The position numbers and the translations under genes were made by a program. A stretch of 64,000 nt of DNA from Leucothrix pacifica. GTDB taxonomy: Bacteria; Pseudomonadota; Gammaproteobacteria; Thiotrichales; Thiotrichaceae. The notes beneath the pieces are model-generated. The model ran no database searches and was not told the origin of the DNA. It was given only the letters and a program-made list of their open reading frames with translations. Where the stretch lies: assembly GCF_003172875.1 (NCBI RefSeq), contig NZ_QGKM01000052.1, positions 1-64,000 on the forward strand, read 5' to 3'. How positions within the stretch are numbered: position 1 is the first letter of the stretch; every line of letters begins with the position of its first letter. Shown here piece after piece: positions 2,139-48,424 of the stretch.

Positions 2139-2272
2139 ACAAACCTCAACTTAGGAATTCAGAATAATGTTACTCAGAAACTGCATGATAAATCACACAT
2201 CAGGCATCCAATAGCGATATTATTCGCGTTTAATAGCATAACACTCAGATAAATATAGAAAGAGGTCGGAAA

Positions 2273-2935
2273 ATGGATGTAAATGGTGATTTTTCAAAAC
2301 GCGTCGTGCTACACAGTGATGATATTCCATGGGAAGACTCACCAATGGCAGGCGTCGAGCGTCGTCGCTTAGATAAAGTTGGTGATAACGACGTACGCGT
2401 AACCACCATCGTCCGCTATGCACCGGGCAGTCACTTCTCCACACACACCCATGACACTGGAGAAGAGTTCATTGTGCTGGAAGGCGTATTTGAAGACGAC
2501 TATGGCCACTGGCCCGCTGGCTCCTACGTCAGAAACCCACCGACCTCACGTCACCAACCCGGTTCAAAAGACGGCTGTATCATCATGGTCAAACTTGGTC
2601 AGTTCGACATGGAAGACCGCACCTTCGTACACATCGATACCAACAAAATCGACAGCATCCCCGACAGAGATCGCGATGGTGTAAGAGTAACTCCCCTATA
2701 CAAAGATCAATACGAGAATGTACGCATAGAACACTGGGAAGCAGGAGCTAATATTGAACTAATCGCAGAAGGTGGCGCTGAAATCTTTGTCCTCAATGGA
2801 AGTTGCCTGGAATCCGGCGATGAACTAACTAAAAACTCATGGCTACGCCTACCCTGCGGCTACCAAACAACCCTACAAGCCGGAAACCACGGCACAAAAC
2901 TCTGGATCAAAACCAACCACCTAAGCAAGCTATAA
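2273..2935 (+). CDS. Cupin domain protein, ChrR-like, two cupin units
   Basis: A 220-residue cytosolic protein with two consecutive cupin folds. The first has a good metal site: H58 and H60 in STHTHDTGEEF, E64/E65, and H94 in TSRHQPGS. This is the Zn- or other metal-binding pattern of the ChrR cupin domain. The second unit (about 120-215) keeps the barrel pattern but lacks the histidines, so it is probably structural. ChrR proteins with an N-terminal anti-sigma domain control sigma-E-like factors. This protein lacks that domain and no sigma factor lies nearby, so a sensor or small-molecule enzyme role (acetylacetone dioxygenase-like) is equally possible. GAGG lies about nine bases before the ATG. 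The gene is divergent from the amine oxidase. Confidence 0.8.
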   Translation: MDVNGDFSKRVVLHSDDIPWEDSPMAGVERRRLDKVGDNDVRVTTIVRYAPGSHFSTHTHDTGEEFIVLEGVFEDDYGHWPAGSYVRNPPTSRHQPGSKDGCIIMVKLGQFDMEDRTFVHIDTNKIDSIPDRDRDGVRVTPLYKDQYENVRIEHWEAGANIELIAEGGAEIFVLNGSCLESGDELTKNSWLRLPCGYQTTLQAGNHGTKLWIKTNHLSKL

Positions 2936-2999
2936 ACCAAAGCCCAAGCCCTAGAAAGCCAGCAGCCAAAAAGAACACCACTCTCAGCCCCCAAACCAG

Positions 3000-3069
3000 C
3001 AGTAGCCGATATTAACTCCGAAAATGTTCCCACCGCAGGTGGCATTGTCGGAGTTAATATCGGCTACTG
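3000..3069. repeat. Long near-perfect palindrome between convergent genes
   Basis: The arms at 3000-3026 and 3043-3069 pair over 27 bp with a single mismatch (A3022 against G3047). The 16-base loop holds a nested CCACC/GGTGG mini-stem. It fills most of the gap between the convergent cupin and YgiQ-like genes. There is no T-run on either side, so it is not a textbook intrinsic terminator. The stem could still stop both transcripts or block antisense reading. I saw no second copy in the window. It does not fit the RYYYAAC/GTTRRRY pattern of integron attC sites. Confidence 0.85.
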
Positions 3070-3080
3070 TGACCCCAAAA

Positions 3081-5300
3081 TCACCTTTTGCCAGCAGGCG
3101 CGCCACCCTTGCGCCCCTTACCACGGCCACCACGACCGCCCTTACCTTTAACCGGCCCTTTACTACCTTGCTTACCACGAATCCGGTGATGCAAATCACT
3201 ACCACTTCCACCCGTGGATTTCGCACGAGGTTTAGACGGGTCCCAGGCAGGCACCAAATGCTGCTTGCCATTACCAATCAGTTCTTCACGTCCCATACGC
3301 TTTAACGCCTGACGGATTACTGGCCAGTTTTCCGGCGCATGATAACGCAGGAAGGCTTTATGCAAACGCCGTTGACCAGAGTCACGCACACTGCCCACAT
3401 GCTCAGACTTAAGGCGGTCAACCTTCTTAAGCGGACTAATTTCAGTGTGGTACATAGCAGAAGCCAGCGCCATCGGAGTCGGCAGGAATGCCTGAACCTG
3501 ATCCGGACGGAAATTACTTTTCTTCAGCCACAACGCCAGATTCAACATATCTTCATCCGTCGTCCCCGGATGTGCCGAGATGAAGTATGGAATCAAATAT
3601 TGCTCTTTACCAGCCTCAGCAGAGTACTTATCAAACAACTGCTTAAAGCGGTCGTAAGTCCCAATCCCCGGTTTCATCATTTTTGATAAGGGCGCAGATT
3701 CCGTATGCTCCGGTGCAATTTTTAAGTAGCCACCCACATGATGCGTGACCAACTCCTTAACGTATTCTGGATCTTCAACCGCCAAGTCATAGCGCAGACC
3801 TGAAGCGATAAACACCCGCTTAATACCCGGCAATGCCCGCGCACGGCGATACACTTTAATCAGAGGTTTATGATTGGTATCCAGATTGCTACAAATGCCG
3901 GGGAATACACAGGATAGACGTCGACAAGAGGCTTCAATCTTAGGACTTTTACACGCAAGTCGATACATATTCGCCGTCGGGCCACCCAAGTCTGAAATGT
4001 TACCAGTGAAGCCCGGAACCGTATCCCGGATGGTTTCAACTTCACGAATAATCGAGTCTTCTGAGCGACTCTGGATAATTCGTCCTTCATGCTCCGTGAT
4101 AGAACAGAAAGTGCAGCCACCAAAACAGCCACGCATAATATTCACAGAGAATTTGATCATATTGTAAGCGGGGTTAGTCGCATCACCATAAGCGCTGTGC
4201 GGCTTACGGGTATAAGGCAGTTCAAACACCTTATCAAACTCCGACATACTCAATGGGACTGGCGGTGGATTAAGCCATACATCACGCTTACCGTGGCGCT
4301 GGATCAAAGCACGAGCGTTACCCGGATTGGTTTCCAGATGAAATACGCGGGAGGTGTGTGCATACAGATATTTATCTTCGACTACCTGATCATAAGATGG
4401 CAAACGAATCACACTGGTTTCGCGGTCGATATTCTTTGGGCGATGATCAAAGAACACAACTTGCGCCGCACCCTCATTCTCTTTTTCGATCTTCGCCACA
4501 GCCTCTTTATTGCTTTTTTCGCAATCGTTTTGCTTTGTGGTGTCGATATAAGGATTCGCTTCCGGATGCTCCAATGACACTTCATCGTCAATGCTGGTAG
4601 AGTCAATGACCGTCCAACCTTCCGGAATACCCTGACGCATAAATGCTGTGCCGCGAATATCAGTGATCTCGGTGATTTTATCGCCACCGGCTAAACGATG
4701 TGCCACCTCAACAATCGCTCGCTCAGCATTTCCATACACCAGCAGGTCTGCTTTGGAATCTGGCAGAATGGAACGACGTACTTTTTCCGACCAATAATCA
4801 TACTGAGCAATTCGGCGCAGACTGGCTTCAATACCACCGATAACTACCGGCACGCCTTTGTAGGCTTCTTTGGCACGCTGCGAATACACAATAGTTGCAC
4901 GGTCCGGACGTTTACCCGCTTCACCATTTGGCGTATAAGCATCATCTGAACGACGTTTGCGATCAGAGGTATAGTGATTCACCATGGAATCCATGTTTCC
5001 GGAGGCTACCCCGAAAAACAAGTTAGGTTTCCCTAGGCGCTGGAAGTCCTCCACATTATGCCAATTCGGCTGCGCAATAATGCCAACCCGAAATCCCTGA
5101 GATTCCAACAGGCGGCCAATAATAGCCATACCAAAACTAGGGTGATCAACGTAGGCATCACCGGTCAAAATGATGATATCGCAGGAATCCCAGCCCAGAA
5201 TATCCATTTCCTCACGGGTCATGGGGAGTTCTGTGGCAGGGCCAAACTTATGCGGCCAGTATTTACGGTGCGAGAAGATATCGCGAGCTTGAGTATTCAT
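3081..5300 (-). CDS. YgiQ family radical SAM protein
   Basis: This 739-residue protein has the UPF0313/YgiQ architecture. An N-terminal cobalamin-binding-like domain ([14 protein letters not shown] near residues 45-57) is followed by a radical SAM barrel with the cluster motif C392-x3-C396-x2-C399. The central body matches YgiQ segments such as [18 protein letters not shown] (153-170). The C-terminal tail, about 45 residues, is very rich in Gly, Lys and Arg, suggesting RNA or other nucleic-acid contact. The reaction is not established for the family; it is expected to be a cytosolic radical-SAM modification enzyme with a 4Fe-4S cluster. It is transcribed alone, or with the permease gene upstream, and ends against the 3000-3069 palindrome. 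Confidence 0.92.
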
Positions 5301-5328
5301 CGCGCGATTATAGCGGGTTCAGCTGGGC

Positions 5329-6558
5329 TTAAACAAATGAACTCGCTAAAAACCCTACACAAGTGATAAAGCCGAGTACCGGAACCCACAATCTCACCTG
5401 GAATATACCCTCCTCAGCCTTTTCTCCCCGTAACTTTATTCGGATCAGTGACAGGTTGATCAACGTAAAAACGGTTAGGGCAACTCGTGACGTCATCTCA
5501 GCCAATGAGTTAATCGGGAATACCAGTGCAAGCGCCAGAATAATCACAATGACGATCATGGTTGATACCACAGGGGTTTGTGTCCGGCGGCTGACTTTAG
5601 CAAACATAGCAGGCAAGCAACCCTGTTTACCCAAACCATAGAGAACCCGTGACGCCATAATCATCTGAATGATCACGCCATTTAAAGTCGCCACAATAGC
5701 GATCAGTGTAATGACTAAAGGTGAGGCGCCGGTAATACGTTCAAACAATAGACCCACCGGTGCATTTGAACCTGACAATTCGTCAATGGGTACCGTCAAA
5801 ACCGCAATTGTAACAACCGCCACATAAACCAAGGTTGCGCCGATCAAGGTAAGAAAGATTGCCCATGGGATGGTTTTACTGGGGTTCTTGGTCTCTTCCG
5901 CCAGATTGACGATATCCTCAAAGCCAATGAACGCAAAAAAGGCCAATAAGCCTGCAGCTGAGATAGCGCCAAACGCTTCAAAATCCGTGAAAGACGGAAT
6001 TACTTTCGGAATCTCCTGAACAATTTCAGGTTCATTCCAGAGTGCAGCAACAACAATCGCAACAAGACCGGCGACCTCAACAAAGGTAAATATCGCGGCG
6101 AAGGTCACTGACTCGGTGATTCCCCATAAAGCAATCAAACCCATACAGATAATTACCAACGCAATAATCACAGCATCGGGTAGATGAATAAGTGACTGAA
6201 TATAACCCGCGCTGCCTATACTGACCGTTGCCGCGGAGATTAATCCGGAAGTCACCACTAGCAACCCAGTACCCAACGCCAGTAACGGTGATCGCAAACC
6301 ATTGCGAATATAGGCTGCCTCCCCCGCACTTACCGGAAACCGTGCCGATAACTCAGCCATGGATGCCGCACTGAATATCATCACAAAGGCCGCCAACACA
6401 AAAGATAACGGAGCATAAATACCGGCTTTACCCGCTGTTGCACCAATCAGCACATAGATACCCGCACCGATCGTCACTCCCAGACCATAAAGCACCACCA
6501 GTGGCAACGACAATGAACGGCGTAATTCTGTATTTTGTGAGGATTGAGTCATTCGCAT
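5329..6558 (-). CDS. APC family amino acid permease
   Basis: A 409-residue integral membrane protein with about 11-12 hydrophobic helices. TM1 carries GLGVTIGAGIYVLIG, the unwound substrate-binding helix motif of APC-superfamily transporters. TM6 has FFAFIGFEDIVNLAEETKNP, a hallmark of the cationic/neutral amino acid permease (YfnA/CAT-like) branch. It is probably a proton- or sodium-coupled amino acid importer in the inner membrane; the specific amino acid cannot be told. The start may be at ATG 6558 or the second ATG two codons later; neither has a strong Shine-Dalgarno. Shorter than typical 450-500-residue members, with a truncated C-terminal end. Confidence 0.87.
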   Translation of the reverse strand: MRMTQSSQNTELRRSLSLPLVVLYGLGVTIGAGIYVLIGATAGKAGIYAPLSFVLAAFVMIFSAASMAELSARFPVSAGEAAYIRNGLRSPLLALGTGLLVVTSGLISAATVSIGSAGYIQSLIHLPDAVIIALVIICMGLIALWGITESVTFAAIFTFVEVAGLVAIVVAALWNEPEIVQEIPKVIPSFTDFEAFGAISAAGLLAFFAFIGFEDIVNLAEETKNPSKTIPWAIFLTLIGATLVYVAVVTIAVLTVPIDELSGSNAPVGLLFERITGASPLVITLIAIVATLNGVIIQMIMASRVLYGLGKQGCLPAMFAKVSRRTQTPVVSTMIVIVIILALALVFPINSLAEMTSRVALTVFTLINLSLIRIKLRGEKAEEGIFQVRLWVPVLGFITCVGFLASSFV

Positions 6559-40308: not shown

Positions 40309-43092
40309 ATGGATAAAACGTATAACCCACAGGACATTGAGCAACGTTGGTACCAGCACTGGGAATCTCAGGGCTATTTTCAACCAGCAGGCGAAGGCGA
40401 CCCATACTGCATCATGATTCCGCCACCTAATGTGACGGGAACGCTGCACATGGGTCATGCATTCCAGGATACCATTATGGATTCGCTGATTCGTTATCAC
40501 CGTATGAAAGGTGATAATACGCTTTGGCAACCAGGTACCGACCATGCGGGTATCGCCACACAAATGGTGGTGGAACGTCAGCTCAACGCTGCCGGACAAA
40601 CACGCCACGATCTTGGACGCGAAGATTTTGTTAAACGTGTCTGGGAGTGGAAAGAAGAATCTGGCGGTACGATCACGCAGCAGTTGCGTCGTTTAGGCGC
40701 GTCACCAGACTGGTCACGCGAACGCTTCACTATGGACGATGGCTTATCAGAAGCCGTCGGCGATGTATTTGAGCGTCTATACGATGAAGGTCTGATTTAT
40801 CGTGGCAAGCGTTTGGTCAACTGGGATACAGTTCTACACACTGCCCTTTCTGACCTTGAAGTACTCAACGAAGAAGAAAATGGTCACATGTGGCACTTCC
40901 GCTACCCACTGGCGGATGAGCAAGGCAACGCCACTGATGAACACTTAATCGTTGCAACCACCCGACCAGAAACCATGCTGGGTGATACCGGTGTTGCAGT
41001 TCATCCTGAAGATTCTCGTTATCAGCACCTGATCGGTAAGTTCATAAAGCTTCCGTTAGTGGGTCGTCTGATTCCAATTGTTGGCGATGATTATGCTGAT
41101 CCTGAAAAAGGGACGGGTTGTGTAAAGATCACTCCTGCTCATGACTTTAATGACTATGAAGTCGGTAAGCGTCATGACCTTGAAATGATTAACATCTTCA
41201 CTGACAGTGCTGAGATCAACGACGATTGCCCACTGGAATACCGTGGTTTAGATCGTTTTGAAGCCCGTAAAGTGATTGTTGCTGATCTGGACAAACTGGG
41301 GCTGCTCGATGAGATCAAAGACCACACTCTCATGGTACCGCGTGGCGATCGCTCCGGCACCGTTGTTGAGCCGTACCTGACAGATCAGTGGTATGTAAAA
41401 ATCACGCCATTGGCAGAGCCTGCTATCGAAGCAGTTGAAACCGGCCGTATTAAGTTCGTTCCTGACAACTACAAAAACATGTACTACAGCTGGATGAATG
41501 ATATTCAGGACTGGTGTATTTCCCGTCAATTGTGGTGGGGACATCGTATTCCGGCTTGGTATGACGATTCTGGCAAAGTTTATGTGGGTAAAACAGCTGA
41601 CATCGTTCGCGAAAAATACAACTTAGCCGCTGATACGACGCTTAGACAAGATGATGATGTATTGGATACCTGGTTCTCATCTGCCCTATGGCCCTTCTCT
41701 ACTTTAGGCTGGCCTGATCAAACGGACGCCCTCAAGACTTGGTATCCAACTAATGTATTGGTGACCGGCTTTGATATTATATTCTTCTGGGTTGCCAGAA
41801 TGATTATGTTTGGCCTCAAATTTATGGATGGCGAAGTACCGTTCAAAGAGGTCTATATTCATGGCTTGGTGCGTGATGCCGAAGGCCAGAAAATGTCTAA
41901 ATCCAAAGGTAATGTCATTGACCCATTGGATGTCATTCAAGGTATCAGCCTGCCTGATTTGCTGGAAAAACGTACCAGCAACCTGATGCAAGATCATAAG
42001 AAAGACAGTATTGCGAAAGCGACTAAGCGCCAATTCCCTGAGGGTATTCCGGCATTTGGTACCGATGCATTGCGCTTTACCTTTGCTGCGCTGGCCTCAA
42101 CAGGCCGTGATGTGCGTTTTGACCTGCAACGAATCGAAGGCTACCGTAACTTCTGTAATAAGCTTTGGAATGCCGCACGCTATGTGATGATGCAGACTGA
42201 AGACAAAGATATCGGTCTTAACAACCCGGATCGTGAGCTATCTCAGGCAGATCGCTGGATTGTGTCACGCCTTCAAAGTACAGCGACGGAAGTTGCAGAG
42301 CACTTTGAAAAGTATCGCTTTGATCTTGCGGCCAAGGCACTTTATGAATTCACATGGCATGAGTATTGCGATTGGTATTTAGAGCTATCCAAACCTGTTC
42401 TGTTTGCAGATGATGTGAGTGATGCCGCAAAGCATGGTACGCGACATACACTTGTAAGTGTGTTTGAGTCTATCTTACGCCTGCTGCACCCAATCATGCC
42501 ATACATCACCGAAGAGATTTGGCAGTCAATCAAATCTCTGCTTGAAATTAATCACGACACGATCATGCTGCAATCCTATCCTGAAGCGGATGCAACATTG
42601 ATTGATGAAGCAGCACAGCAAGGTATGGAATGGGCACAGCAGTTCATTATAGGCATTCGTAAGATTCGTTCGGAAATGGATATCAAGCCGGGTAAAACAC
42701 TCCCTGTACTGCTGAATAACTGGTCTGATACTGATCAGCAGCAGTTTGAGCAATATTCTCGAGAAATCCTGTCACTAGCTAAGATTAAATCGGTTGAATG
42801 GTTAAATAGTGATTCAGATGCACCAGACTCAGCCACCGCTTTAGTTGGAGAAATGCAGATTCTGATTCCTCTGGCCGGGCTGATTGATAAGGATGCGGAA
42901 ACAGCGCGTCTGACTCGCGAAATTGAGAAAATCAATAAGCAGCTGCAAGGTGTAATGGGGCGCTTAAACAATCCGGCATTTACTGACAAAGCACCGGCTA
43001 ATGTTGTCGCTCAGGTTCAGAAACAAGCGGATGAGCAACAGGTCGCTTTGGAGCAATTGCAACAGCAATTAGCGAAGATCGAATCAATGTAA
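40309..43092 (+). CDS. valS: Valyl-tRNA synthetase
   Basis: A 927-residue class I synthetase. The HIGH motif is HMGH at 47-50; KMSKS is in [11 protein letters not shown]. An editing domain (CP1) with [13 protein letters not shown] and the anticodon-binding and C-terminal coiled-coil ([20 protein letters not shown]) complete the usual layout. It charges tRNA-Val and edits Thr. Length is close to E. coli ValS (951). A convergent pseudokinase gene and a shared terminator follow. Confidence 0.98.
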
Positions 43093-43104: not shown

Positions 43105-43147
43105 TTTCAAAAAAAGCCCGACAGGTCATCCTCTGCCGGGCTTTTTT
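43105..43147. terminator. Bidirectional terminator after valS
   Basis: AAAAAAGCCCGACAG pairs with CTGCCGGGCTTTTTT over about 16 bp with one mismatch and an eight-base loop. A and T runs on both sides let it end valS (+) and the pseudokinase gene (-). Confidence 0.92.
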
Positions 43148-43200: not shown

Positions 43201-45588
43201 TTAACGAGTCGTCACCCCACCTCGGGTTTTCAGGTAATCAACCACTTTGCTTTTCTTCTGCGCAATTGCCATATCTAAAGCTGTCTGACCATCTGCTGCC
43301 TTGGCGTTGACTCTCGCACCCTTGGCAATCAGCAGCTTACTCATATTCAAGTGTCCACTGCGCGCCGCAATATGCAATAGCGTCCAGCGATTACTTTGAG
43401 CAACGTTAGGATCAACTCCCACTGCCATACACGATTTTACAAATGTAAGATTTCCTGCCGCTGCCTCACGATGTATTTTACCACCTACCGTGCAATCATC
43501 AGTGACCGCTTTTATCCTTGCCATTTCCTTCTTTTTGAATGCCTGAAGACGTTGGCGTTCCTGAAGCTGCGACTGAAGTGTGCTGTTATTACCAGAGTTA
43601 GGTGCACCATTAGGTTGACTAGTGCCAACAGACGTTTCGATTGGCATCGCCTGACCTTGACTGCCTACTGCGATTACCTGACTTGAGTCCTGATCACTTT
43701 CTGCAGTAGCACTATCTTGGTTAGCATCCGCTTGACCATTGGTATTACTTCTGACAGTATCATTACTATTCTTAGCCGCCTCAGCCTCTGCCTTCTCTTT
43801 CGCAGCCTTGGCAGCTACAGCTGCTCTTCTGGCCTCTGCTTCTCTGGATCTGACCAAAGCCTGAGCCCTGAGGAGCTCCTGATTGATCCGTTGCTGATCA
43901 GCGCTCTGTTCATCTTCACCAGCTAGATCAGTTTGCTCTGTTGGTGGTTGCTCCTCCTCCGTACTTGCCTCATTCACTGCTTCAGTATTGGCAATTGCCA
44001 CCTCGTTATTAATAGCAACCACATTGATGGCAGTAGCTGTACTTGCTGTCTCTTGCGTATTAGCCGCTTTTTTCTGAGCTGCCAAAAAATCTTGCTCACC
44101 CGCATTGACTGCTTTATTGACGAGCGCGGCCAGCCCCGCAAGGTCTTGTACACTGGGTTTAACAGGAGACTCAGGGGGAGTTGTTGAATTGGATGCTACC
44201 TCAGCATCGAGAGCAGCATCTTCTCCAGACTGTGTCAGTTGCTGATGGGCTAATAGCGCCTCTTTTTGAATCAAGCTCTTCAGCTCGTTACTGTCGGCGG
44301 GATCAACTTTTGTGGCCGACGCACTCTGCTCGACATCCGCTTTAGCAGTCGTGGAATTATCAGACTCACCTGAGGCTGTAGCCGCAGACGACGTTGTAGC
44401 CACATCATCAACCGCCTTAACATTGGAAGCAGGAGTTGTTTCGATTACTGTCACTGGAACTGCCGCGATGTCTGCAGCAGAAGATGCTGCACTATCACGA
44501 CTACTGGTCGAAGTAATCTGGTCAGCATTGTTTTGACTAATTACGGTATACGCCACTGCTGCAGATGCCAGAAGTAAACCACCTAACAGCATCAATCCTT
44601 TCTTGCTTCTGGCTCCCGTGTTCTCTTTTCGAATAGAGGTGATGATTGGCTCAGCAGGTACCTCTTCCGTTTGCTCAGCCGTCTGTTTGAGAGCAGGTTT
44701 TAGAGCCACAACTTTAGACGATGACGCCGTTATCGCTGGCACAACCACTGACTGAAGCTCCTGAAGTTGTGAAATAAATTCACGACATGAATTGAATCGT
44801 TTACTCGGGTTACGAGATAACGCTTTAGCCAGTACGTCAGAGACTTCAGGAAGATCCGGACGGTGCTCTGTCAGAGGGTCAGCAATCAGTGTTGCAACAT
44901 GCATACGGTAGTCATCACCACTGTTCATGTTAGTGAATGGCTGAACTCCGGATAATGATTCATAAACCAATGTAGCCAGCAAATATTGATCGTAATTTGG
45001 TGTGTAGAAGCTTTTTAAATATTCCGGCGCCAGATGGCCTGCTACATCAAGCGTGCTGATCGCATTCTTAAACTTGCCCATTCTTTGCAAGGAAAATTCG
45101 GTAATGAAGTCGCCCAATAGCACCTGTTGAGTACTAACATACACACTGTCAGGACGAACGTTACTATGAATGTAATCTGCATCGTGCAGCTCATCCAGCG
45201 ACACAGCCAATGGGGCTGCCCAATCTAAGACAGACTCAACAGAAACCGTTTGTTTATCACTGATCTGCTTTTGAAAAAGCGTCTTAAGTGAGTCATGAGT
45301 GATGTTGGGCAGCACTGCAAAAGGCTGTGACTCATACAAGCCATTATCCAACACCTTAACAACGCCACTGATACGGGCCGCCGCCAGATTATCGCAGGCA
45401 TCTTTGAAGGCACTGGCAAATCCGGGCAGGATCAGCAATTCAATTCGGGGAAAAGACAATACAACCAATCGGTTACTCTGGTTAGCATCTTCCGCAAGGT
45501 AACAACAATTAAGGGTATTATCTGAGATTCTTTTTTGTATTTGATAGCGTCGTTCGATAACTGCGCCTGGTGTTATTGCTTTCTGCAT
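43201..45588 (-). CDS. Membrane pseudokinase with C-terminal ankyrin repeats
   Basis: A 795-residue protein. Residues 12-280 have a eukaryotic-type Ser/Thr kinase fold, but key residues are gone: the P-loop (20-30) has no glycines, the beta-3 Lys is absent (VVLSF, 42-46), HRD reads HSN (141-143), the catalytic-loop Asn is S148, and DFG is DFI (160-162). APE (187-189) and the late Arg (264) remain, so the fold is intact but catalysis is unlikely. A TM helix (331-351) leads to a long Ala/Ser/Thr/Glu-rich region (about 352-690), then about three ankyrin repeats (700-795; HIAARSGHLNMSKLLIAKGA). Inferred topology: cytoplasmic kinase fold, ankyrin domain in the periplasm. Partner unknown. The tail is convergent with valS. 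Confidence 0.8.
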   Translation of the reverse strand: MQKAITPGAVIERRYQIQKRISDNTLNCCYLAEDANQSNRLVVLSFPRIELLILPGFASAFKDACDNLAAARISGVVKVLDNGLYESQPFAVLPNITHDSLKTLFQKQISDKQTVSVESVLDWAAPLAVSLDELHDADYIHSNVRPDSVYVSTQQVLLGDFITEFSLQRMGKFKNAISTLDVAGHLAPEYLKSFYTPNYDQYLLATLVYESLSGVQPFTNMNSGDDYRMHVATLIADPLTEHRPDLPEVSDVLAKALSRNPSKRFNSCREFISQLQELQSVVVPAITASSSKVVALKPALKQTAEQTEEVPAEPIITSIRKENTGARSKKGLMLLGGLLLASAAVAYTVISQNNADQITSTSSRDSAASSAADIAAVPVTVIETTPASNVKAVDDVATTSSAATASGESDNSTTAKADVEQSASATKVDPADSNELKSLIQKEALLAHQQLTQSGEDAALDAEVASNSTTPPESPVKPSVQDLAGLAALVNKAVNAGEQDFLAAQKKAANTQETASTATAINVVAINNEVAIANTEAVNEASTEEEQPPTEQTDLAGEDEQSADQQRINQELLRAQALVRSREAEARRAAVAAKAAKEKAEAEAAKNSNDTVRSNTNGQADANQDSATAESDQDSSQVIAVGSQGQAMPIETSVGTSQPNGAPNSGNNSTLQSQLQERQRLQAFKKKEMARIKAVTDDCTVGGKIHREAAAGNLTFVKSCMAVGVDPNVAQSNRWTLLHIAARSGHLNMSKLLIAKGARVNAKAADGQTALDMAIAQKKSKVVDYLKTRGGVTTR

Positions 45589-45950
45589 GCTCCGTCCTTG
45601 ATATGCATTAAAACGAGGTCGAGATTAACATATATTAATTAAAGATCTCTAAACGGTAACCCAAAAAACCATTAATTATTGTTAGTATCTCCCGAGCTTT
45701 GAGAGAGCTGCCTGGTAAATATTATTACTAATGACATCGATTTGTTTTATTTAGGGATGAAACAATGCTGTTTGAGTTGTAAGTGGTCATTGATATCAGG
45801 TCCCGAGCATAACCTATAAATTAACTTGATTAGCTTTTACCAAGAGAGTAATTAGTATGTACAAAATAATTTGTCTATATTCTCGGTGAACTAATCCAAA
45901 CTGTTATTGTCATACCCTGCAATAACAAAAATAATGCGAGTACATCTTCA
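45589..45950. other. Divergent AT-rich intergenic region
   Basis: A 362-bp gap between the pseudokinase and DUF1800 starts. It is AT-rich and must hold both promoters, but no convincing -35/-10 pair stands out. Two short reading frames (20 and 10 codons) lack Shine-Dalgarno sequences and are not supported. No tRNA or large hairpin was seen. Confidence 0.6.
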
Positions 45951-47246
45951 ATGGGGAAACTAGGACTTTTCAAAGCCCGTCATCTGGTATCCAGAACCAG
46001 TATAGGGGCCGAGTGGGAGACTATTCAGCGCTATAAAAATTTAAACATGCGCGATGCGATAATCCACACACTAAATGCCGTCAACTATGAAACACCAAGG
46101 ATGCCTCAAACATCCGCTTGGAGTAAAACGTTGGGCAATCGTAATTCCATGGCGCGACAACGTAACATGCAGCGCATGGCTAAGACTGAAGGCAAGGCAA
46201 TTCAGAACTGGTGGGCAAATCATATGCTGACCACCAAATCTCCGTTTCTGGAACGCATGACTTTGTTTTGGCATAACCACTTCCCGTCAAATATTGATGG
46301 CACCAAGCAGCCGAGTGCGCTTCTGGAGCAAAACCAGACTCTGCGCCGTCATGCACTGGGTAACTATGGCAACCTGTTATTTGCTATCTCTAAAGACCCT
46401 GCAATGCTGCTTTACCTTGACGGCTACAAAAACGTCAAAGAAGACCCTAACGAAAACTTTGCCCGTGAACTATTGGAACTGTTCACTTTAGGCGGCACGC
46501 ACTACTACTCAGAGCGCGACATCAAAGAAGCTGCCAGAGCCTTCACCGGCTGGAGCATTGATGATCGCACGGGTAAATACCGCTTCCGCCCGGAGCTACA
46601 TGACAGAGGAATCAAAACCTTCATGGGTAAGCGCGGTAATTTCACGGGTGAAGATATTCTTAAGATTTTGCTAAAGCATCCACGAACGGCTGAAACAATT
46701 GCAGAAAAGATGTGGTCTGAGTTTATTAACACCTCCCGACCAAATCCTGGCTATACCCGTCAGTGGGCGCAGATATTCCGTAATTCTAATTACGATATCA
46801 AAACGCTACTAATGGCGGTACTTGGTAGTGATGCTTTCTGGCATCCATCTAATATGGGTGGTCTGATTAAGTCTCCTGTCGAGCTCACTATCGGTACGAT
46901 GCGAGCACTACCATATCGCTTACGCACCAATAATTTATCGCACAATCTCTCCCTCATGGGGCAGTCGCTATTTGCTCACCCTAGTGTTAAAGGCTGGGAT
47001 GGTGGTGAAAGCTGGATTAGCACGCAATCATTAATGCGTCGTAGCGGTATTTTAACCAATCTAACACGCGGCAATTTGCGCAAAACGAATGATGCGAGAA
47101 TGATGCAGCACATGCCAAATTGTAGCGATGAAGAATTAATTACCTGGCTGTTACCGGTAACTCCACTCAATCCATTACCGACTGAGCCAGGGCGACAACG
47201 CCTGGTTCGTGCACTGGTTTTGGACCCTGCTTACCAAGTTAGTTAA
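45951..47246 (+). CDS. DUF1800 domain-containing protein
   Basis: A 431-residue protein of the DUF1800 family. The N-terminal ARHLVSRTSIGAEW is the conserved opening, FWHNHFPS and FARELLELFTLGGTHYYSERDIKEAARAFTGW are the family hallmarks. It has no clear signal peptide. Function is unknown, but DUF1800 almost always pairs with a DUF1501 gene, as here, with 17 bp between. The start is the only usable ATG before an upstream stop; no clear Shine-Dalgarno. Divergent from the pseudokinase gene. Confidence 0.9.
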   Translation: MGKLGLFKARHLVSRTSIGAEWETIQRYKNLNMRDAIIHTLNAVNYETPRMPQTSAWSKTLGNRNSMARQRNMQRMAKTEGKAIQNWWANHMLTTKSPFLERMTLFWHNHFPSNIDGTKQPSALLEQNQTLRRHALGNYGNLLFAISKDPAMLLYLDGYKNVKEDPNENFARELLELFTLGGTHYYSERDIKEAARAFTGWSIDDRTGKYRFRPELHDRGIKTFMGKRGNFTGEDILKILLKHPRTAETIAEKMWSEFINTSRPNPGYTRQWAQIFRNSNYDIKTLLMAVLGSDAFWHPSNMGGLIKSPVELTIGTMRALPYRLRTNNLSHNLSLMGQSLFAHPSVKGWDGGESWISTQSLMRRSGILTNLTRGNLRKTNDARMMQHMPNCSDEELITWLLPVTPLNPLPTEPGRQRLVRALVLDPAYQVS

Positions 47247-47263
47247 TAGTCGAGGAAATTATT

Positions 47264-48424
47264 ATGGATCGTCGTGATTTTTTAAAGTATTCAGGTTTAA
47301 TTTCAGCGGCTGGTTTCGTTCCGGAGATGGCCTTCTCTGCAACTGGCAGAAGCCCTGAAAAAATTGTCGTTTTAGTAGAGCTAAAAGGTGGAAATGATGG
47401 TTTCAACACACTCGTTCCTTATATGGACGATGCGTATAAGAAACTTCGCCCGACTCTCAAGATAGACGAAAGAAAAGTCCTAAAACTAGGACAAGGCGAT
47501 ATGGGTATGCACCCTCGCCTGCAACAATTAATGAAAATTTGGGAACAAGGTGACATGGCCTGGGTTCAGGGCATTGGATACCCTCGTGGCGTGCTGTCAC
47601 ATTTCCGTTCCATGGACATTTGGGACTCCGGTTCTAACGCCAACCAATTTTTAGACGATGGCTGGTTAACGCATGTATTGCCACGTGTTAAGCAAGGGCT
47701 TCACGGTATCAGTGTTAGCAACGACGGCGGTAGCCTCGGACCTTTGCACAGCGCACGACTCAACAGCGTTAGCATGCAAAGCCCTCACATGTTCGTTAAG
47801 CAGTCAAAATCAATCAAGAATATCACCCCCGTGAATTCCACACCGGCCCTTGCGCATCTGACACAGACACAAAACCAGCTTTATGAAGTTGGTCTGCAGC
47901 TTCGTGAAAAAATGACACGAAGCCTGCGCAATCAAAAGAGAAGCAGAAGCAAGGGCGTGCTGGGTCATAGTCTTGAGTCAGTTGCGCAAATGATTATTGC
48001 CGGTATCGACTCCCCTGTTTACAAAGTAACTCAGGGTGGATTTGATATGCACTCCGGTCAGGTTGGCCGACACAACAACGTGCTATATCAGGTTGATCAT
48101 GCCCTATCACGCTTTGCAAATACCATGAAACAAAATGGTCTTTGGGACAAAGTCGTGGTTGTGACTTACTCTGAATTTGGTCGACGCGCTGCTGAAAATC
48201 GCGGTGGCGGTACTGACCATGGTACGGCGTCAGCACAATTTGTAATGGGTGGTGGAATCCGCGGTGGTCTATATGGTCGACACCCCAATATGAACCAGCT
48301 TGATGCGAATGGTAATGTGGCACATACCACAGACTTCCGTCAGGTATATGCAACCTTGGCTCAGCGGATCTGGCGTCAAAACCAGCATCCCTGGCAAGGT
48401 CACCAAACCATACCGTTTATTTAA
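47264..48424 (+). CDS. DUF1501 domain-containing protein, Tat-type leader
   Basis: A 386-residue protein. The N-terminus DRRDFLKYSGLISAAGF resembles a twin-arginine signal, so export as a folded protein is likely. VLVELKGGNDGFNTLVPY and VVVTYSEFGRRAAENRGGG, GTDHGTASAQFVMGG are family motifs related to sulfatase/alkaline-phosphatase-like folds. CGAGGAAA precedes the ATG at good distance. It forms an operon with DUF1800 and is ended by a UUCG-loop terminator. The molecular role of the pair is unknown. Confidence 0.9.
   Translation: MDRRDFLKYSGLISAAGFVPEMAFSATGRSPEKIVVLVELKGGNDGFNTLVPYMDDAYKKLRPTLKIDERKVLKLGQGDMGMHPRLQQLMKIWEQGDMAWVQGIGYPRGVLSHFRSMDIWDSGSNANQFLDDGWLTHVLPRVKQGLHGISVSNDGGSLGPLHSARLNSVSMQSPHMFVKQSKSIKNITPVNSTPALAHLTQTQNQLYEVGLQLREKMTRSLRNQKRSRSKGVLGHSLESVAQMIIAGIDSPVYKVTQGGFDMHSGQVGRHNNVLYQVDHALSRFANTMKQNGLWDKVVVVTYSEFGRRAAENRGGGTDHGTASAQFVMGGGIRGGLYGRHPNMNQLDANGNVAHTTDFRQVYATLAQRIWRQNQHPWQGHQTIPFI

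Follow-up and report, generated by a model that had tools for sequence, protein, structure and literature searches.

Most bacterial pseudokinases have yet to be tested, and dating their origin is difficult. Seven bacterial families have been defined by their motifs (PMC12599244): the proteobacterial GLW pseudokinases carry GLW in place of HRD and LLLL/W for the beta-3 Lys motif; ActPs1 has all three catalytic residues substituted; ActPs2 combines beta-3 Lys to Arg and HRD Asp to Asn changes with a DFG deletion and a large activation-loop insertion; and ActPs3, the MviN family, has all three motifs degraded together with a hallmark activation-loop deletion. CP1 proteins are devoid of a transmembrane (TM) region and linked to a COG3899 domain, DYD proteins pair a beta-3 Lys to Arg change with a DYD motif, and DLHK proteins keep the HRD Asp and have no TM region (PMC12599244). 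The MviN pseudokinase domain acts as a scaffold that interacts with PknB and FhaA (PMC12599244). Ankyrin repeats, for their part, work in the gammaproteobacterial periplasm in the AnkB-type proteins of P. aeruginosa (cited in PMC7567364). A literature search on Leucothrix kinases and on kinase-ankyrin pseudokinases found nothing relevant.

The window, that is, the whole stretch of DNA analysed here (64,000 nucleotides of Leucothrix pacifica, contig NZ_QGKM01000052.1), contains a minus-strand open reading frame of 795 codons with an ATG start (43201..45588), which encodes a protein-kinase fold followed by one TM helix, a low-complexity linker of about 340 residues and three ankyrin repeats. The gene converges on valS (40309-43092, plus strand), with a likely terminator stem between the two that was missed by the automatic scan, probably because of its loop length, and its other flank is a DUF1800-DUF1501 pair (45951-48424, plus strand). 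The features of the gene are as follows.

43201..45588, minus strand: gene of the predicted membrane pseudokinase-ankyrin protein, 795 aa
44743..45588, minus strand: putative pseudokinase domain, residues 1-282 (Pfam Pkinase, PDB profile match, AlphaFold and Foldseek)
44539..44595, minus strand: single TM helix, residues 332-350 (hydropathy 2.17 across 19 residues; same position in all orthologues)
43591..44538, minus strand: low-complexity, fast-changing linker, residues 351-666 (composition; 19-28% identity between Leucothrix species; pN/pS 0.62-0.87)
43204..43494, minus strand: C-x20-C ankyrin module of three repeats, residues 699-795, entered via a predicted long helix (about 667-711)
45595..45599, minus strand: Shine-Dalgarno sequence AAGGA, kept in all orthologues
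43116..43147, no strand assigned: likely two-way terminator, stem GCCCG...CGGGC flanked by A7 and T6 (sequence)

Pfam placed Pkinase at residues 87-266 (39.7 bits, cut-off 31.7) and Ank_2 at residues 706-787 (51.4 bits), Pkinase and Ank being the only families above cut-off in this protein; PASTA repeats had no Pfam match, and the NCBIfam PknB/Stk1 model scored 64 bits where its cut-off is 450. A profile built from the kinase domain and its orthologues matched M. tuberculosis PknB in the PDB at 1.2e-29, and Foldseek, given an AlphaFold model of moderate quality (mean pLDDT 69, pTM 0.71), returned PknI, PknA and PknB with a probability of 1.00. Confidence in the activation segment and glycine loop of that model was below 50, and we therefore make no claim on the shape of the pocket. 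Thus Pfam, the PknB profile and Foldseek all agree with the preliminary description of this gene, made from the DNA letters, in finding a kinase fold, and its single TM helix, low-complexity linker (Ala 20%, Ser 11%) and fused ankyrin repeats were likewise recovered.

To see what remains of the active site, we aligned the window protein to an intact orthologue (L060) and to the Leucothrix copies, of which five are full length, each from a species-level genome and at the same locus (the window, G002, G003, G004 and G006), and one is partial (G005). The positions concerned are listed below.

45502..45528, minus strand: former glycine-rich loop, residues 21-29, ISDNTLNCC (alignment; LASGGMGKV in the intact orthologue)
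45454..45456, minus strand: Ser45 at the beta-3 Lys position (all five full-length Leucothrix copies have Ser, the intact orthologue Lys)
45160..45168, minus strand: degenerate HRD, HSN, residues 141-143 (alignment; HRD in the intact orthologue)
45103..45111, minus strand: degenerate DFG, DFI, residues 160-162 (within DF[IV]TE; DFG in the intact orthologue)
45022..45030, minus strand: APE, kept, residues 187-189 (alignment)
44797..44799, minus strand: late Arg, kept, R264 (invariant alignment column)

From the intact orthologue to the window protein, GGMGKV in the glycine loop becomes DNTLNC, VCK at beta-3 becomes VLS, HRDVKPGN in the catalytic loop becomes HSNVRPDS and DFGIV becomes DFITE. 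All five full-length copies are without a glycine pattern in the loop, and they read HSN, HGS, HSN, HSH and HGN at the HRD position. The alpha-C Glu, a loss absent from the preliminary description, is gone as well (QKEV to KDAC; Ala or Val in all five). What has been kept is the DFG Asp (D160) with F161, both invariant, in a DF[IV]TE motif that is fixed apart from I/V; the APE, whose first residue is Ala or Ser and is always followed by Pro-Glu; and the late Arg, with which the APE Glu is expected to pair. The alignment with the intact orthologue therefore bears out the earlier claims that the glycine loop, beta-3 Lys, HRD Asp and DFG Gly were lost and that the APE and late Arg were retained. 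These losses are not due to chance, because the same ones are found in five species-level genomes, and together they support a pseudokinase that has retained the kinase fold.

Of the residues that handle the nucleotide, the DFG Asp is the one left in all five full-length copies, and some metal or nucleotide may be bound through it. The domain could be read as a nucleotide-binding pseudokinase, with a non-canonical pocket (built on D160, perhaps with a basic residue that has moved) that serves as a nucleotide-gated switch or for another kind of transfer, as in SelO and SidJ; the invariance of D160 and F161 and the near-fixed DF[IV]TE would fit such a role. We consider it unlikely, given that the five dead copies share no conserved Lys or Arg in their glycine loop, beta-2 or beta-3, that SelO and SidJ retain the beta-3 Lys (motif table of PMC12599244) where all five copies have Ser, that four of the five have Ser for the catalytic Asn, and that K19, although invariant in the dead copies, is also present in the active orthologue. 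A WNK-type rescue of the lost Lys was rejected as well, no basic residue being conserved in the glycine loop or beta-2, and a search for an alternative Lys/Asp pair, which the preliminary description had named as grounds for refutation, found none conserved in the active-site motifs.

The intact orthologue belongs to a metagenome-assembled genome that was deposited as 'Aquificaceae' (G047) and is placed, in our genome set, within the window's own family. Its gene (L060:4538-6556) has the same domain order, with GGMGKV, VCK, QKEV, HRDVKPGN and DFG all intact and a Pkinase match of 134.6 bits across the full domain. It shares 37% identity with the window protein over the kinase and has the same C-x20-C module, but differs in having two ankyrin modules and a linker about three times shorter; the activation segment of the window protein is three residues shorter than its own. 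A tree of 34 kinase domains groups it with the five dead copies (support 100/100), which themselves sit on a long stem of 2.07 changes per column. Two further relatives are partial: G029 holds, where a contig ends, an N-terminus whose glycine loop and Lys are intact, and G013 the C-terminus of a kinase-ankyrin relative, on a contig that starts within the kinase gene. All three genomes fall in a single sister genus, g8. No kinase closer than 37% identity was found in 369 gammaproteobacterial genomes, and relatives in a plasmid collection were ordinary Ser/Thr kinases only, at less than 30% identity.

Orthologues with full HRD and DFG motifs were expected, in the preliminary description, to speak against a dead kinase. 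Taken literally, such an orthologue does exist in G047 (and partly in G029), yet the five full-length Leucothrix copies are dead all the same; the intact orthologue is an outgroup that merely dates the loss, and the pseudokinase reading stands. Because it groups with the dead copies at 100/100, and because the glycine loop and Lys are intact in G029, the ancestor was most likely an active kinase with the same TM helix and Cys-paired ankyrins, and the Lys, alpha-C Glu, HRD Asp and glycine loop would have been lost on the Leucothrix branch. The family thus contains, in two sister genera, a dead and an intact orthologue built on the same receptor plan, each of a size suited to direct biochemistry.

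The kinase part might also be a decaying relic, in a protein that works through its membrane anchor and ankyrin module alone, and the kinase domain's identity between Leucothrix species, 51-62% compared to 82-92% for valS, could be taken that way. We find this very improbable. The ORF is full length and free of stops in five of five species, the core formed by alpha-F, APE and the late Arg is invariant, and new motifs have become fixed in the dead clade. Moreover, when the window's gene was compared with four other Leucothrix species, pN/pS (with synonymous sites near saturation) was 0.32-0.41 in the kinase domain, well under the 0.62-0.87 of the linker, and 0.13-0.30 in the ankyrins, with identities of 19-28% in the linker and 60-82% in the ankyrins. 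By these substitution patterns, the dead kinase domain is under purifying selection and not decaying.

A pseudokinase, by the general definition, misses at least one of the beta-3 Lys, HRD Asp and DFG Asp; in all five copies the Lys is replaced by Ser and the HRD Asp by Asn, Ser or His. Nevertheless, judged by its motifs and domains, the Leucothrix protein fits none of the seven families of PMC12599244. HSN, HGS, HSH or HGN and V[VMI][LI]S stand where the GLW family has its signatures. The DF of DFG and the APE are kept and the activation segment is just three residues shorter, unlike in ActPs3; there is neither the Lys to Arg change, the DFG deletion nor the insertion of ActPs2; and the invariant DFG Asp sets it apart from ActPs1. 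The TM helix at 332-350, in a protein with only Pkinase and Ank above cut-off, is at odds with CP1, Ser45 and DFI with DYD, and the lost HRD Asp and the TM region with DLHK. We define here a Kinase-TM-CysAnk receptor family, with an N-terminal Ser/Thr kinase fold, one TM helix and a C-terminal C-x20-C ankyrin module, whose members are the five full-length Leucothrix copies and the G047 protein, with fragments in G005, G013 and G029.

The ankyrin module is named after two invariant cysteines, which emerged from the comparison of ankyrin modules.

43492..43494, minus strand: Cys699, invariant
43429..43431, minus strand: Cys720, invariant

Matches to the module profile in the loci examined have either both Cys with the same spacing or neither. 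The preliminary description had the ankyrins facing the periplasm, and two observations support this placement: the N side of the TM helix (RSKKG) is positively charged, which puts the kinase inside by the positive-inside rule, and stand-alone proteins with the same Cys pair, including one in the same genome (C63), start with a signal-peptide-like sequence. From this cysteine pattern a Cys699-Cys720 disulfide is likely, though a predicted continuous helix through Cys699 would shift the pair a few residues off register and leaves the bond unproven. Small signal-peptide-like proteins ending in the C-x20-C module were seen at L002:1501-1800 (C63 of the same genome), L015-L019, L023, L099 and L100, except that L017 is a C-terminal fragment of the g8 kinase and not a small exported protein. 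Spread through the family, these small proteins are possible periplasmic partners of the pseudokinase. A separate exported, lipoprotein-like protein (L004, C125:17604-20816 of the same genome) has many ankyrin repeats without the Cys pair. At E <= 1e-15 the module profile matched in six of the eight genera of the family, with ordinary ankyrin proteins among the weaker matches, and at E <= 1e-20 it matched in none of 368 other gammaproteobacterial genomes. Ankyrins of this periplasmic, Cys-paired kind would be a further sensor type for bacterial receptor kinases, and no prior description of them was found in a literature that excludes most subscription journals.

We then turned to the neighbourhood, where the preliminary description had suggested that the gene and the divergent DUF1800-DUF1501 pair share regulation. 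The gene order, from a GATase gene to an aminotransferase, is syntenic across the genus except at contig ends (in Leucothrix arctica, L058, the orthologue lies in the same context), and adjacency alone is therefore uninformative about function; outside the genus, valS and DUF1800, where one contig holds both, are separated by tens of kilobases or more. A five-species alignment of the 362-bp gap revealed a conserved block beside each gene and, between the two blocks, about 170 bp of poor conservation.

45600..45690, no strand assigned: conserved upstream block beside the pseudokinase gene (five-species alignment)

The neighbourhood survey thus confirmed an order kept within the genus but not a functional link. 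With separate promoter-side blocks and genus-wide synteny, shared control, though conceivable, has no support, and a common promoter was rejected as unsupported on the same blocks and synteny and on the distance between valS and DUF1800 in other genera. At the DUF1800 end lies a perfect inverted repeat, TGTTATTG-N10-CAATAACA (45902-45927), mostly conserved in five Leucothrix species and likely an operator; it overlaps a promoter-like site just before DUF1800.

On balance, and with fair rather than high confidence, we read the protein as a single-pass inner-membrane receptor or scaffold with a non-catalytic cytoplasmic kinase domain, which, as part of the same reading, would no longer transfer phosphate and probably would not bind ATP-Mg normally. 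The periplasmic ankyrin module, on its long flexible stalk, would bind a partner in the cell envelope, binding would change the clustering or conformation of the receptor, and the dead kinase domain would relay the signal by protein contact, for example by docking on an active Ser/Thr kinase or serving as its substrate, as the MviN pseudokinase domain does with PknB and FhaA. Alternatively, the contact could serve to nucleate a membrane complex, as for EssB/YukC.

Every Leucothrix genome has at least one other kinase match above the Pfam cut-off. An intact Ser/Thr kinase of about 783 aa was noted at L038 (C125:34376-35134 of the same genome) and L107, with matches of similar length in G003, G005 and G006; read in G000 and G002, it has GKGGMG, VAIK, HCDLKPAN, DFG and a C-terminal TM stretch. 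This membrane-type kinase could be a partner of the pseudokinase. The two might even form a back-to-back heterodimer in which the pseudokinase, like HER3 or STRAD, activates an intact Ser/Thr kinase when the ankyrins sense a ligand; PknB-type and MviN kinases are known to dimerise back to back (PMC12599244), and kinases to pair with are there, in every Leucothrix genome and, in the intact 783-aa form, in G000 and G002. No linkage or co-occurrence test singles out the 783-aa kinase, and we regard such an allosteric pairing as distinctly unlikely. The same genome also encodes a leucine-rich-repeat protein fused to a kinase domain with HGDLYAHN and DFG (L040, C136), and at L041 / L067 (C74 of the same genome) adjacent von Willebrand-type, PP2C-like and kinase-like ORFs resemble a TerY-P triad.

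In g8 the active kinase has company. At L060 it is the last (4538-6556) of three tightly packed genes, after an FHA/4Fe-4S/cNMP-binding protein (96-2141) and a multihaem cytochrome with five CxxCH motifs (2173-4473), and the same two genes directly precede the kinase start in G029. This arrangement of an FHA/4Fe-4S/cNMP protein, a five-haem-motif membrane cytochrome and an ankyrin receptor kinase (L060:96-6556 and L072:259-4976) looks like a phosphorylation-controlled redox module, and a literature search on the cluster found nothing relevant. Of 63 genomes from the family, only G047 and G029 had full-length matches to the FHA protein, and only these two to the cytochrome; neither protein had any match in the seven Leucothrix genomes, four of which are 97% complete or better, and the FHA protein had none in G013, whose contig begins inside the kinase gene. 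The cluster may have been lost by Leucothrix or gained by g8. The lack of a match to either protein in Leucothrix is as expected if the phosphorylation output was given up, and the loss of catalysis there goes together with the absence of the phospho-reader gene. More tentatively, and with doubt prevailing, an envelope-sensing circuit of disulfide-stapled periplasmic ankyrin, kinase, FHA/4Fe-4S/cNMP reader and multihaem cytochrome may have been taken apart in Leucothrix, where the dead receptor was kept for signalling by contact only. If so, the dismantled circuit and its intact g8 counterpart would form a before-and-after pair illustrating the origin of bacterial pseudokinases.

Among known systems, the M. 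tuberculosis MviN pseudokinase domain (ActPs3) is likewise a membrane-linked dead Ser/Thr kinase domain, but MviN carries an extracytoplasmic carbohydrate-binding domain where the Leucothrix protein has ankyrins. EssB/YukC of type VII secretion is likewise a single-pass membrane pseudokinase, with a role in non-catalytic assembly; it differs in being part of a Firmicute secretion machine, in its markedly reduced activation loop and in having no ankyrins. The AnkB-type proteins, in contrast, stand alone, are linked to catalase activity and have no kinase. The PknB/Stk1 PASTA receptor kinases, which include the best PDB match, share the layout of a kinase inside, one TM helix and a repeat sensor outside, whereas they are catalytically active and carry PASTA rather than ankyrin repeats.
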